The notes below the pieces were generated by a model. That model was not told the origin of the DNA and ran no database searches. It saw only the letters and a program-made list of their open reading frames with translations. Shown here in pieces: positions 23,076-34,342 of a stretch of DNA of 64,000 nt. The position numbers and the translations under genes are program-made. Source of the DNA: Ruminococcus sp. (lineage in GTDB: Bacteria; Bacillota; Clostridia; Oscillospirales; Ruminococcaceae); assembly GCA_017558505.1 (NCBI GenBank), contig JAFYUM010000036.1, positions 1 through 64,000 of the forward strand, written 5' to 3'. Position 1 is the stretch's first letter. Every line of letters starts with the position of its first letter.

Positions 23076-23879
23076 TTATGCCCAGAATATTACAATTCCG
23101 CTTTCGTAGTCAAGCAGACAGCCAGACGTAAATCCAAGTTTGCTTCTGAAATTGTATACAACAACGTCATGGCTTAAATTCAGCAGTTTTTCATCATTGA
23201 CAGACATACTGATGAAATATGGAGCGCCCTTTCCTCTGAGGTATATATCAGCAGCTGACGTCATATCATCGAAATATTCTGTAAGTTCAGATGGATTGAT
23301 ATTTTTTTCAAGCATTATACTTTCAAAGGTTTTATCGTCATTTATTGTTTCATAGCCTTTTTCTGCAAATTCCTGCTCATATTTTTTTATCGTTTCTTCG
23401 TCAGTATAGAAGGAAACGCAGGCGTAAGTATCGGTAGCTTCCGGGAAAGGTGCAGGAGCCTTAATCCTGAAATAGTAGTCCTCACATTCACGTGGCAGAA
23501 AGTCGGGAAATGCTCTTGTACGCTGTTTAGACATACTGCGGTATCCGCAGGAATATACAGCCTGTTTCAGATGATAAAAGGGTTTTGTGCGGTTGAAGAA
23601 CATTACCATTAAAGGAGAGCCGAATATAATCAGCGTAAGTATAATCGCAATAATACGGCAGATATTTACGTGCTTTTTGTAGTAATAATTTCTCTTGTAT
23701 TTATTGTAATACACTTTCAGAATTACATTTGCAAGGATAAACGGTATTATCAGAGTGAAAGCAATCATATTAAAGCTGAGCAGATTAATAAAACCTGTAA
23801 ATCCAAGCACGAAAAACATTACTATATTTATCAAAGTAAATGGGGAAGCAACGGGAGTTTCTCTTGTTTTATCTTCCAT
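23076..23879 (-). CDS. Membrane protein of an unnamed paralogous family (copy 2)
   Basis: This is a 267-residue protein. Three hydrophobic segments fill the first 100 residues, followed by an extracytoplasmic-type domain with FYTDEETI, and the family end signature YESGIVIFWA. It is paralogous to the next gene upstream (shared YYFR, PYSYL/TYACVSFYTDE, DYDSG/DYESG). GGGGGTGGCGGT precedes the ATG at 23879. Function unknown. Confidence 0.75.
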   Translation of the reverse strand: MEDKTRETPVASPFTLINIVMFFVLGFTGFINLLSFNMIAFTLIIPFILANVILKVYYNKYKRNYYYKKHVNICRIIAIILTLIIFGSPLMVMFFNRTKPFYHLKQAVYSCGYRSMSKQRTRAFPDFLPRECEDYYFRIKAPAPFPEATDTYACVSFYTDEETIKKYEQEFAEKGYETINDDKTFESIMLEKNINPSELTEYFDDMTSAADIYLRGKGAPYFISMSVNDEKLLNLSHDVVVYNFRSKLGFTSGCLLDYESGIVIFWA

Positions 23880-23891
23880 ACCGCCACCCCC

Positions 23892-24668
23892 TTAACCCCA
23901 TACGACAACAAGTCCGCTGTCATAGTCAAAGGCATATCCGTGACGTGAGTTATCAAAGTTATACACAACAAGAGTTTCGTCAAGTATGTCTTGCTTTTTA
24001 TCACTTAATTGCCAGAAAACATGCTTAGGAAACTTTAGAAGTTTGAGGTATTCACACTTATATGAAAGCATCAATTCTTTGTCATTCAGTTCGCTTTCAG
24101 TAAATTCTAAATCAGCGATATATTCTGAATAAGTCATTTCTGCCTCAGTTGTATAGCCGCCTTTTTTCTTGCATTTTTCTTCAAGCTCTGCAATGCTGTC
24201 CTTATCTGTATAAAATGACAGATAAGAGTAAGGAGAATAATCTTGTGCGGGAAAATTCAATTGCGTTCTGAAATAATAATCGCTTATATTTTGTGGCAGT
24301 TTTTTCGGCAATATTTCATTTGCTGATTGTCGTACTCCGTGTACATAAGTAAATCTCTGAATTGGATACATTTGCTTTGTATAACAACAACTCGCAGGAA
24401 TAAAAGGAATTGAAATGCTTATGAAAACTAAAACAACAGCGATAATACGGGTAATTATAAGTAGAGTTCTGCATTTGCCGTTTTTCTGATAAATCTTATA
24501 AAAGATGACGAGGACAAGATTTACTGCAAGATTTATAAACAGAAGATATAGTGACAATCCGACAGTTAAGATAAACAGAAATGGTCCACCGAAAAAGAGC
24601 CACAAAATGAAAATTGCGTTGTTTAAATTCTCTAATGGCGTGTTTTTCTTTCTGATTTTTGTAGTCAT
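23892..24668 (-). CDS. Membrane protein of an unnamed paralogous family (copy 1)
   Basis: This is a 258-residue protein with the same layout as copy 2: N-terminal helices, then a soluble domain with SFYTDKDSI, ending YAFDYDSGLVVVWG. I use the start MTTKIRKKN at 24668 after GGGGG; the longer frame to 24761 would read through the small upstream ORF. It lies 12 bases before copy 2. Function unknown. Confidence 0.75.
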   Translation of the reverse strand: MTTKIRKKNTPLENLNNAIFILWLFFGGPFLFILTVGLSLYLLFINLAVNLVLVIFYKIYQKNGKCRTLLIITRIIAVVLVFISISIPFIPASCCYTKQMYPIQRFTYVHGVRQSANEILPKKLPQNISDYYFRTQLNFPAQDYSPYSYLSFYTDKDSIAELEEKCKKKGGYTTEAEMTYSEYIADLEFTESELNDKELMLSYKCEYLKLLKFPKHVFWQLSDKKQDILDETLVVYNFDNSRHGYAFDYDSGLVVVWG

Positions 24669-24678
24669 AGTTACCCCC

Positions 24679-24774
24679 TTAACCCCATACGACAACAAGT
24701 CCGCTGTCGTAGTCAAAGGCGTAGCCGTGATATGTAATTTCAATCTTTTTGTTAGGTACATTAATTTCAGTCAT
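24679..24774 (-). CDS. 31-residue mini-ORF ending in the paralogue C-terminus
   Basis: An ATG at 24774 with GAGGTGG upstream opens a 31-codon frame starting MTEINVPNKKIEIT and ending YAFDYDSGLVVVWG, the same 14 residues that end copy 1. The DNA of this end is almost identical to that at 23892-23940. It is first in the transcript from the promoter at 24827. It could be a leftover of a deleted third copy, or a real small peptide. Confidence 0.5.
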   Translation of the reverse strand: MTEINVPNKKIEITYHGYAFDYDSGLVVVWG

Positions 24775-24826: not shown

Positions 24827-24855
24827 AGTATACCACATAAAATATTATTTGTCAA
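24827..24855 (-). promoter_or_regulatory. Promoter of the mini-ORF/paralogue operon
   Basis: Minus-strand TTGACA (24855-24850), 17-bp spacer, TATACT (24832-24827). A 17-bp box lies 7 bases upstream of the -35. Confidence 0.82.
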
Positions 24856-24862
24856 TAGAAAA

Positions 24863-24879
24863 TTATTGTTTTTCGATAA
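24863..24879. promoter_or_regulatory. Shared 17-bp regulator box, site 1
   Basis: TTATTGTTTTTCGATAA is an inverted repeat (TTATTG-N5-CGATAA). It is identical to 31977-31993, and in both cases lies exactly 7 bases from a TTGACA box. Confidence 0.65.
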
Positions 24880-24920
24880 TATTTTTCTGTTTTTCAAAAT
24901 TGGTGCATTTGCAAATGTAG

Positions 24921-31939: not shown

Positions 31940-31976
31940 TCTGTATTTGGTGATAATATTAATATTCAAAAATAAA

Positions 31977-31993
31977 TTATTGTTTTTCGATAA
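31977..31993. promoter_or_regulatory. Shared 17-bp regulator box, site 2
   Basis: TTATTGTTTTTCGATAA, identical to 24863-24879. It lies 7 bases upstream of the -35 of the DUF2975-HTH operon, whose small HTH protein is the natural candidate to bind it. Confidence 0.65.
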
Positions 31994-32000
31994 AAAGGTA

Positions 32001-32029
32001 TTGACAAATGGTAAATTGTGTGATATACT
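32001..32029 (+). promoter_or_regulatory. Promoter of DUF2975-HTH operon
   Basis: TTGACA (32001-32006), 17-bp spacer, TATACT (32024-32029). Confidence 0.85.
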
Positions 32030-32059: not shown

Positions 32060-32518
32060 ATGTGGACTAAAACTAAATCTCTGTTACTGTCAAGAATACT
32101 GACCGTTGTAGTGGCGGCTGTATTCGTTATGGTTGCTTGCGTTCTGCCTCTTATAGTGAAGTTTTACGAGTTTATCTCAGAACCTCTGGGTATTATCAAA
32201 GGGAGTATCGTAATTCCTTTCTGTATCGGGCTTTACATTGCAATTGCCCTTGCCCTTGTGGCGCTGTTTTTCCTGCATAAGCTGCTGGATAACATCAACA
32301 AGGAAATCGTTTTCGACAGCTCTAACACAAAGTGCCTGCGGATTATTTCATGGTGCTGTATTTTTGCTGCTATAGTTTTCTTTATTCTCTGTCTATGGCG
32401 ATATATTTTCGCCATGCCCTCTGTAATGGCTTTAATGCTTGGGCTTATAATGCGTGTTCTCAAAAACGTATTTGAAAAGGCTGTGGAGATAAAATCTGAA
32501 AACGATTTTACAATATGA
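32060..32518 (+). CDS. DUF2975 membrane protein
   Basis: This is a 152-residue protein with four helices. The central segment LLDNINKEIVFDSSNTKCLRIISW is the DUF2975 hallmark. These proteins are almost always encoded just before a small YozG-like HTH regulator, as here (next gene 12 bases on). AAAGGAG precedes the ATG. Function unknown; probably a membrane partner that senses a signal for the regulator. Confidence 0.9.
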   Translation: MWTKTKSLLLSRILTVVVAAVFVMVACVLPLIVKFYEFISEPLGIIKGSIVIPFCIGLYIAIALALVALFFLHKLLDNINKEIVFDSSNTKCLRIISWCCIFAAIVFFILCLWRYIFAMPSVMALMLGLIMRVLKNVFEKAVEIKSENDFTI

Positions 32519-32530
32519 GGAGGAAATTCA

Positions 32531-32746
32531 ATGCCGATTATTGTGAATTTAGATGTTATGATGGCGAAACGTAAAATGTCATCACAGGAGCTTGCGGAAA
32601 AGGTTGGTATAACTACCGCTAATCTTTCCATACTTAAAACAGGTAAAGCGAAGGCTGTGCGTTTTTCTACGCTGGAGAAGATATGCGAAATTCTCGAATG
32701 TCAGCCGGGGGATATACTGGAATTCAGGGGGATTGAAAAACAGTAA
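32531..32746 (+). CDS. YozG-like Cro/C1-type HTH regulator
   Basis: This is a 71-residue single-domain regulator. MAKRKMSSQELAEKVGITTANLSILKTGKAKAV holds the helix-turn-helix, followed by the ending LECQPGDILEF typical of this group. GAGGA precedes the ATG. It is coupled to the DUF2975 gene and to the large membrane protein downstream. It likely binds the 17-bp box at the promoter. Confidence 0.92.
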   Translation: MPIIVNLDVMMAKRKMSSQELAEKVGITTANLSILKTGKAKAVRFSTLEKICEILECQPGDILEFRGIEKQ

Positions 32747-32770: not shown

Positions 32771-34342
32771 ATGACCGAATCAACAGTTAATAATTCAAAC
32801 GAACAAGTTATAAACAATGTTTTTATAGAGGAAATTGTGGAGAAAAGAAGCTTCAGCAAAACTGAAAAGATTTTCGCTTTTATCATTGTTGTGCTTGCTT
32901 TTCTCTATATTCAATTTCAGATTTTCAATCCTGCCGGATTTATTACAACGGCTGTAAATATTGCAATTATTACAGCCTCAATCGTATTCCTTAAAAAGCA
33001 GAGCTGTCGGTTTACAGCTATAAACAGAGTTATTGCGGCTGTGTTGTATCTGTTTTCTTTCGTCTTTTCAATTACAGACAACGGGTTTATTAAATTTCTC
33101 GTTGGTATATTTCTTTTTATTGCAGGGGCTTACTTTGTATATTCTGTGGCGGAGGGAAAAAAGGAAATTGAAAAATATCTGCCCATTGCGCTCATAAAAG
33201 CTTTATTTGAGTTCCCATTTTCAAATTACGGTGCACAGGCTCTTGCTGTAAAAGATGCGGCAGGTAATTCAAAGGCTTCAGGAAACATAAAATATGTTCT
33301 CCTTGGACTTCTTATGACTATTCCTGTGACGTTTATTGTTACAGCACTACTTGTTTCAGCTGATAAGGGTATGGAAAATATTATCAACGGTATTTTTACA
33401 AATGCCTTTTCAGAAAAGGCATTTGAGCTGTTTCTTCGCTTTATTGTGTCCATTCCCTGCGGTCTGTATCTCTATGGTATGCTTTATGCTAACTGTAAGC
33501 GTGATAAACTCAATGTGCTTAATGCAGCTTTGTGTGAGTTCCGTATAGGAAATGCAAAGACTATACCTAATATGGTACTTTATACTGCGGTTACGCCTAT
33601 TATCCTGCTCTATATTGTATTCTTTTTCACGCAGGCGAGCTATTTCCTCTCTGCTTTTTCGGGAAATCTCCCTGATGGTTACAGTTACTCCGAATACGCA
33701 AGACGCGGATTTTTCGAGCTTTGCGGTGTGACAATCATAAACCTGCTTATAATTACATTCATCAGCTTTTTATCCCAGAAAAGCGGCAGAAATAAGCCGG
33801 CAGCACTTAAATTCTATACTCTTACTCTCAGCTTCTCAACAATCATTCTCATTGTTGTTGCAATCAGCAAAATGGTGATGTATATCTCTGAATACGGTCT
33901 TACAAGACTTCGTTTTTATACAATGTGGTTTATGCTTCTGTGTGCATTTATGTTTGTGCTGATTATCGTGAAGCAGTTTAAGTTTGAAATGAAATTTTCA
34001 GCATGGTTTGCAGGAATATTCACTGTTATGTTTGCTCTCCTCTGTTTCTGCAGTCCTGATTATGTTATTGCGAAGTATAACATAGAAATGTATAAGGCTG
34101 GGTATCTTGAGGATCTTGATATGAGTATGATTTATGATATGTCTGATGATGGAATATTATGTGCCGTTCAATCAGGTGAAATAGATGTAAAGAAAGCATA
34201 TTATGTATCGATTGAATCTGATGATGAATTATATGACTATCTTAATGTACCTGCACTTATTCTTCGTGAGGAATTAGGAGAAATAGAACTTACGCCAGAG
34301 GATGAAGAAAAATACTCTCATTTGTTAGGTTTGTTCTTATAA
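32771..34342 (+). CDS. DUF4153-like multi-pass membrane protein
   Basis: This is a 523-residue protein with about ten to twelve membrane helices and a soluble C-terminal 95 residues rich in acids. The N-terminal half resembles DUF4153/DUF4173 (YIQFQIFNPAGFITTAVNIAI, SNYGAQAL region). The start at 32771 is favoured by AGGAG; GTG 32762 is the alternative. It is third gene of the DUF2975-HTH unit, so may be its main target. Function unknown. Confidence 0.82.
   Translation: MTESTVNNSNEQVINNVFIEEIVEKRSFSKTEKIFAFIIVVLAFLYIQFQIFNPAGFITTAVNIAIITASIVFLKKQSCRFTAINRVIAAVLYLFSFVFSITDNGFIKFLVGIFLFIAGAYFVYSVAEGKKEIEKYLPIALIKALFEFPFSNYGAQALAVKDAAGNSKASGNIKYVLLGLLMTIPVTFIVTALLVSADKGMENIINGIFTNAFSEKAFELFLRFIVSIPCGLYLYGMLYANCKRDKLNVLNAALCEFRIGNAKTIPNMVLYTAVTPIILLYIVFFFTQASYFLSAFSGNLPDGYSYSEYARRGFFELCGVTIINLLIITFISFLSQKSGRNKPAALKFYTLTLSFSTIILIVVAISKMVMYISEYGLTRLRFYTMWFMLLCAFMFVLIIVKQFKFEMKFSAWFAGIFTVMFALLCFCSPDYVIAKYNIEMYKAGYLEDLDMSMIYDMSDDGILCAVQSGEIDVKKAYYVSIESDDELYDYLNVPALILREELGEIELTPEDEEKYSHLLGLFL

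Follow-up and report, generated by a model that had tools for sequence, protein, structure and literature searches.

A 17-bp box at two Ruminococcus promoters is a candidate operator of a small HTH_26 protein encoded beside a DUF2975 membrane protein

Two loci in the window (the whole 64-kb stretch of DNA analysed) carry the same 17-bp box ahead of a promoter. Site 1 lies behind the triosephosphate isomerase gene and serves a 31-codon mini-ORF and two paralogous membrane genes; site 2 precedes an operon of three genes. The features are as follows.

23076-23879, minus strand: MEMb, paralogue of MEMa and the next gene in the same direction
23892-24668, minus strand: MEMa, membrane protein of an unnamed family, candidate target of the box
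24679-24774, minus strand: mini-ORF of 31 codons, the first reading frame behind promoter 1
24827-24855, minus strand: promoter of site 1, TTGACA-17-TATACT with extended -10
24863-24879, minus strand: O1 of site 1, the candidate main operator box; the transcribed strand reads TTATCGAAAAACAATAA
31910-31940, plus strand: terminator-like hairpin just before site 2, behind the preceding gene
31977-31993, plus strand: O1 of site 2, the candidate main operator box, TTATTGTTTTTCGATAA
32001-32029, plus strand: promoter of site 2, TTGACA-17-TATACT with extended -10
32060-32518, plus strand: DUF2975 membrane protein (PF11188, 4.6e-21), 152 aa, ending ENDFTI, candidate sensor
32531-32746, plus strand: HTH protein (HTH_26, PF13443, 1.3e-25), 71 aa, candidate binder of the boxes
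32771-34342, plus strand: DUF4153 membrane protein (Pfam, 5.8e-78), third gene of the operon

The DUF2975 protein scores 75.5 bits against PF11188 (cut-off 27), and the HTH protein passes the PF13443 gathering score (89.8 bits, cut-off 22), which places it among the HTH_26 Cro/C1-type regulators. The DUF2975 gene is followed directly by the small HTH_26 gene, which is the layout of DUF2975-HTH (YoaS/YozG-like) pairs; YoaS we take to be a DUF2975 protein. MEMa and MEMb have no match in Pfam. The mini-ORF (MTEINV...HGYAFDYDSGLVVVWG) consists of the start of a MEM gene joined to the last 16 MEM codons, and its end is nearly the same DNA as the end of MEMa. Given that it has a counterpart at the same place in another species (L173) and an intact relative in L145, it may be a collapsed, perhaps old, copy of a MEM gene, or a leader peptide.

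The two copies of the 17-mer TTATTGTTTTTCGATAA are identical. On the minus strand at site 1 the box is followed by 7 bp (24862-24856), TTGACA (24855-24850), 17 bp and TATACT (24832-24827), and on the plus strand at site 2 by 7 bp (31994-32000), TTGACA (32001-32006), 17 bp and TATACT (32024-32029), so that the coordinates bear out the first-pass annotation, which had placed an identical box 7 bases from TTGACA-17-TATACT twice. The same annotation had called the two promoters unrelated; this holds for their position and strand, but both are of one conserved promoter type. In a promoter scan both match the consensus at 11/12 positions and have TG before the -10 hexamer. The box has the same letters and orientation at both sites while the promoters point in opposite directions, and it is thus inverted relative to transcription at one of them; this is harmless because the box, which had been described as an inverted repeat, is a near-palindrome (the imperfect palindrome TTATYG-N5-CRATAA).

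Within the 64-kb window no third copy of the box was found with up to three mismatches (2 found; mean of 0.67 in shuffled sequences). The genome-wide motif search proposed in the first-pass annotation covered the own genome (2,467,549 bases in 49 contigs, 96.4% complete) and returned TTATYG-N5-CRATAA at exactly two places, both in the window, compared with one place for the reversed pattern used as control. With one mismatch allowed there were 24 places versus 42 in the control, and for the shorter core TATYG-N5-CRATA six versus nine. Because the relaxed patterns show no excess over the control, the weaker matches amount to background, from which the two full sites are distinct; neither the one-mismatch nor the ten-base-core search gave further box sites beyond the background of the reversed control in this genome. 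The many random copies in coding DNA that had been named as a ground for giving up the idea were not seen.

At least 570 HTH stretches were confirmed, and the best 80 loci, picked by similarity of the HTH protein only (77-94% identical) and coming from Bacillota and Bacteroidota, were kept and examined. The box, with no or one mismatch, lies upstream of the HTH and DUF2975 genes in 77 of these 80 best loci in the two phyla. Among the 48 loci in Bacteroidota the best upstream site has no mismatch in 44 and one in two, and two lack upstream DNA; among the 32 loci in Bacillota it has no mismatch in 19, one in 12 and three in one. Three loci lack a qualifying site: L078, where the best one has three mismatches, and L044 and L086, for which there is no upstream DNA. 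As the loci were selected on the protein and the box was found before homologous HTH operons in two phyla, these data support the suggestion in the first-pass annotation that the 71-residue HTH protein is the candidate binder. In 16 of 46 Bacteroidota loci a TAnnTTTG motif, presumably the -7 element of this phylum, begins 6-9 bp after the end of the box, and TTTG follows 10-13 bp after the box in 27 of 46; binding of a protein so close before the -7 motif would also block the polymerase, which suits repression. In six loci from Prevotella/Bacteroidales relatives (L047, L054, L062, L068, L069 and L081) two full boxes about 76-77 bp apart flank a promoter-like motif, TTTGCACCG. In Ruminococcus flavefaciens and relatives a lipoprotein-like gene with no Pfam match lies between the box and the DUF2975 gene (L043, 3056-3490).

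When the ten-base core was slid along the flanks of O1, both phyla showed score peaks at precisely -21 and +21 bp. In Bacillota the mean core score is 7.06/10 at +21 (z 14.5) and 6.84/10 at -21 (z 12.7) against a null of 3.4, and in Bacteroidota 5.58/10 at +21 (z 9.6) and 5.80/10 at -21 (z 10.7) against a null of 3.5. In some loci both copies are strong and 21 bp apart (L057, L070). At the two sites in the window the neighbouring copies are the following.

24884-24900, minus strand: O3 of site 1, ATTTTGAAAAACAGAAA, a weaker copy upstream of O1 at -21 bp, core 7/10
24842-24858, minus strand: O2 of site 1, CTATTGACAAATAATAT, a weaker copy downstream of O1 at +21 bp that includes the -35 hexamer, core 9/10 (P about 0.0005 for the fixed offset, by composition)
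31956-31972, plus strand: O3 of site 2, ATATTAATATTCAAAAA, a weaker copy upstream of O1 at -21 bp, core 8/10 (P about 0.002 for the fixed offset, by composition)
31998-32014, plus strand: O2 of site 2, GTATTGACAAATGGTAA, a weaker copy downstream of O1 at +21 bp that includes the -35 hexamer, core 8/10 (P about 0.003 for the fixed offset, by composition)

The +21 copy in Bacillota typically reads TATTGACAAA-YRRTA, and the -35 hexamer is half of this second putative operator. The constant distance of 7 bp between the box and TTGACA follows from this, because the +21 copy contains the -35 hexamer, and the position of the -35 hexamer within the +21 copy points to repression. This anatomy of the sites strongly suggests that the HTH protein binds there and represses.

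Sites in trans were sought by scanning 125 genomes of the genus with a composite pattern (the box core, 6 bp and TATTGACA), which gave 77 sites in 59/125 genomes versus one control hit. Apart from the two in the window, the 75 sites comprise 40 before a DUF2975-HTH operon with an HTH protein at least 75% identical, 13 before a paralogous HTH operon (HTH protein 55-66% identical), 11 before MEM genes, 10 before a gene for a DUF6688 protein (Pfam) and one before a lone DUF4153 gene. HTH proteins aside, the products of the site-bearing genes are membrane-protein-like by inspection, and some HTH operons encode a lipoprotein-like product in addition. At these 75 sites the C of the -21 copy is conserved in 74 and its G in 55; for the +21 copy the search pattern itself dictates the left half, which is hence uninformative there. 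A DUF6688 gene is not found in the own genome. In other genomes a DUF6688 membrane gene with the box was seen ahead of the gene for topoisomerase IV/gyrase subunit A (L137 and L170 are examples).

In a search in which MEM and DUF6688 genes were located by protein similarity, the box being ignored, and the box core was then sought within 1 kb upstream, the box was present before MEM in 14 of 20 genomes with the HTH protein versus 0/20 without it, and before DUF6688 in 8 of 10 with it versus 1/32 without it; presence of the HTH protein was scored at 76% identity or more (47/125 genomes of the genus). These counts support the earlier proposal that the two loci form one small regulon. In HTH-bearing genomes the box is missing at 6/20 MEM and 2/10 DUF6688 loci; in one box-less case the MEM gene lies directly behind tpiA (G028). 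The HTH protein is encoded in the genomes of 20 of the 23 trans sites (22 fetched, one from the window); the other three sites lie in G005 (90% complete), G119 (76%) and G070 (75%), where it was not found. The DUF6688 count covers 42/44 genomes (G034 and G087 have the gene at contig ends), with a second fragment in G035 left out and a short fragment making up the G067 row; the MEM count covers 40/41 (G082 at a contig end), with one MEM gene per genome, further copies uncounted and L324 unused. Upstream DNA is short for L305 (81 bp), L034 (372 bp) and L325 (421 bp).

Fisher values are 3e-6 for MEM and for DUF6688 alike, ignore relatedness and overstate the evidence because the gene trees show only about two changes of the box in each target family; these trees took 40 and 39 rows (L284, L328 and L030 omitted) and yield one to four usable independent pairs. 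Pairings made from HTH presence gave no discordant pair; when the box was the starting point, discordance arose in 3 of 200 random pairings for the DUF6688 tree, and all these numbers are too small for significance. With kinship allowed for, the co-occurrence of box and HTH protein is suggestive rather than significant.

In the model of the HTH protein (pLDDT 73, moderate confidence) the recognition helix comprises residues 29-36. It is near-invariant, with N31, L32, S33, L35 and K36 in 40/40 sequences, as expected if the operator is likewise conserved. A sequence search of the PDB with the HTH protein matched only the VanU-type entries 3tyr/3tys, and in the structure comparison with the model CylR2 is one of the better hits (2xiu, TM 0.72, E 0.014). 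The DUF2975 proteins are divergent, being 13-61% identical to the window protein in the alignment, in which E147 and F85 are the sole invariant columns and T151 is nearly so. At the stop codon they end in E-x-[DEQ]-[LFYM]-[TF]-[IV] at 69 of 77 loci, or 74 of 77 by a looser rule, and ENDFTI of the window protein fits. AlphaFold predicts four long helices (pLDDT 94.9, high confidence), the tail continuing the last helix; a structure search with this model gave no PDB match with E up to 0.001. Going by its conservation, the C-terminal peptide is the best candidate for a contact with the HTH protein.

The own genome encodes a second HTH_26 protein (L017, contig C34, 364890-365093, minus strand), the promoter of which has the same layout, the same distance to TTGACA and the palindrome TTAATG-N5-CATTAA; its membrane partner ends QESDETL. 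Upstream regions were compared for 60 loci with such HTH genes, three of which (L233-L235) are orthologues of the window protein. Most paralogue loci have the same layout, either with TTAWYG-type half-sites and the recognition helix NVNLSKLK or, in a third class (L196, L201, L203, L209, L211, L212 and L221), with TTAAAG-N5-CTTTAA and the helix NVNLSNLK; the window protein goes with the half-site TTATYG and has the helix TANLSILK. Among the 60 loci no such palindrome was recovered at a promoter in L199, L205, L206, L215 and L250; for L232 the reading, made by eye, is one base off. Because NVNLSKLK is found with both TTAWYG and TTATCG half-sites, residue 34 by itself does not amount to a code. 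ESDETL is the ending of the membrane partners of paralogous HTH proteins, and in L205, L206 and L215 a single HTH gene has two or three distinct membrane-protein frames nearby with this ending (ESGETL in one frame). None of 24 class d operators is fully TTATYG in genomes that also carry the window-type HTH protein, and at least 18 of 64 genomes with an HTH match and no orthologue have a fully TTATYG class d operator; the comparison of 0/24 with 18/33 is biased in that the box pattern was the selection criterion for 13 of the 33. These data suggest that the paralogous modules are insulated from each other.

Combining these results, we suggest that the box serves the 71-residue HTH_26 protein as its main operator (O1) and that this protein quite probably represses its own operon and the membrane paralogues through the 21-bp array, with the DUF2975 protein as sensor. 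Alternatively, the HTH protein could bind the box and activate, with RNA polymerase being recruited by O1, the centre of which lies about 51 bp before the start. In Bacillota O1 itself is clear of the promoter hexamers and sits upstream of the -35 hexamer, a possible position for an activator; however, two near-consensus promoters with a TG-extended -10 need no activator, O2 covers the -35 hexamer, a full box covers it in some Bacillota loci (L060, L094), and the Bacteroidota box is close before the -7 motif, so that we consider activation unlikely. It is distinctly unlikely that the two sites share ancestry only, promoter 1 being a recent copy of the promoter of the HTH operon and its box having no current function in trans: promoter 1 does resemble the DUF2975 promoters of other Ruminococcus (L043, L121), but box and spacing are kept before MEM homologues about 30-50% identical in several species and gene orders, and the box also precedes the unrelated family DUF6688.

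A different regulator acting on the box, for instance the second HTH_26 paralogue on contig C34, would fit the finding that paralogues of this class lie behind TTATCG-type boxes in 13 genomes lacking an orthologue, which indicates that the specificities overlap. We regard this as highly unlikely given that the C34 paralogue has a palindrome of its own at the same position, that its class shows no full TTATYG operator in genomes with both regulators and that the trans targets track the DUF2975-linked HTH protein. To chance, or to a structural DNA or RNA element such as a terminator or hairpin, we give next to no credence: the box is AT-rich and palindromic, but its only two copies in the genome are both at promoters, it is conserved in two phyla, and, lying upstream of the -35 hexamer, it is outside the transcripts.

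In the model of repression, dimers of the HTH protein would occupy a three-site array of O3, O1 and O2 with a centre spacing of 21 bp (two turns), O1 being the strong site. O2 is built around TTGACA of the -35 hexamer, and its occupancy would shut the near-consensus promoter. In this way the HTH protein would repress both the operon that encodes it (DUF2975, HTH and DUF4153) and, acting in trans, the membrane paralogues at 23076-24668. The most likely sensor is the DUF2975 protein, a predicted four-helix membrane protein, and its ENDFTI tail would hold or release the HTH protein depending on an envelope signal; by holding it, the DUF2975 protein would relieve repression and the regulon would be switched on together.

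The HTH protein shares the fold of its DNA-binding domain with SinR, 434 Cro and VanU (PDB), for which we know of no membrane partner and which have other operators. SdpR is of the ArsR HTH family and thus of another family than the HTH_26 protein. In Bacillus subtilis SdpR is an autorepressor encoded with a polytopic membrane protein, SdpI, that can sequester it and so cause derepression (PMC1626106). Membrane sequestration is reported there, whereas here we infer it. CylR1/CylR2 of Enterococcus faecalis resembles the circuit proposed here in that a small repressor acts with a small membrane protein with predicted helices and no phosphorelay is involved; in that system the regulatory pair is read divergently from the operon it controls and a toxin subunit serves as the signal (PMC3709268), whereas here the pair is inside the putatively repressed operon, action in trans is proposed and the 21-bp array is triple. 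We suggest CylR1/CylR2 and SdpI/SdpR as the closest characterised analogues and claim membership in neither. Pairs of an Xre protein and a YoaS-like membrane protein have been described as conserved, with 32 tabulated and the partner given as "a membrane protein, likely permease", and were set aside as not being toxin-antitoxin systems (Makarova, Wolf and Koonin 2009, PMC2701414). What is shared is the pairing of a membrane-protein gene with one for an Xre-type HTH protein; as far as the text available to us goes, that work gives no operator, target or mechanism, all of which are proposed here. A type II toxin-antitoxin system was considered for the present pair and rejected, the partner being a DUF2975 membrane protein with four long helices and not a cytosolic toxin. 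In the open-licence part of PubMed Central we found no paper on this operator or regulon or on what DUF2975-HTH pairs bind or do; a search combining the half-sites with Xre gave nothing on this box, and in the parts seen of a C. thermocellum DAP-seq study (PMC8457756) TTATCG occurs only in a primer.

In total, the sequence comparisons support the view that these membrane-protein genes form a small regulon, controlled by a small candidate repressor that is widespread and uncharacterised. DUF2975-HTH pairs are widespread in at least two phyla, and with an operator, a triple 21-bp layout, trans targets and the tail they would present a directly testable circuit. It is possible, if on balance doubtful, that they represent a widespread class of phosphorylation-free membrane signalling in which a short C-terminal tail (of the ENDLTI and ESDETL types) hooks a very small repressor that acts on a 21-bp-phased array in the -35 region, paralogues being insulated by the half-site (TTATYG, TTAWYG or TTAAAG) together with residue 34 (I, K or N). 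If this were true, the tail could link any membrane protein bearing it to the circuit. The paralogous modules form a natural set for understanding how small repressors keep apart.
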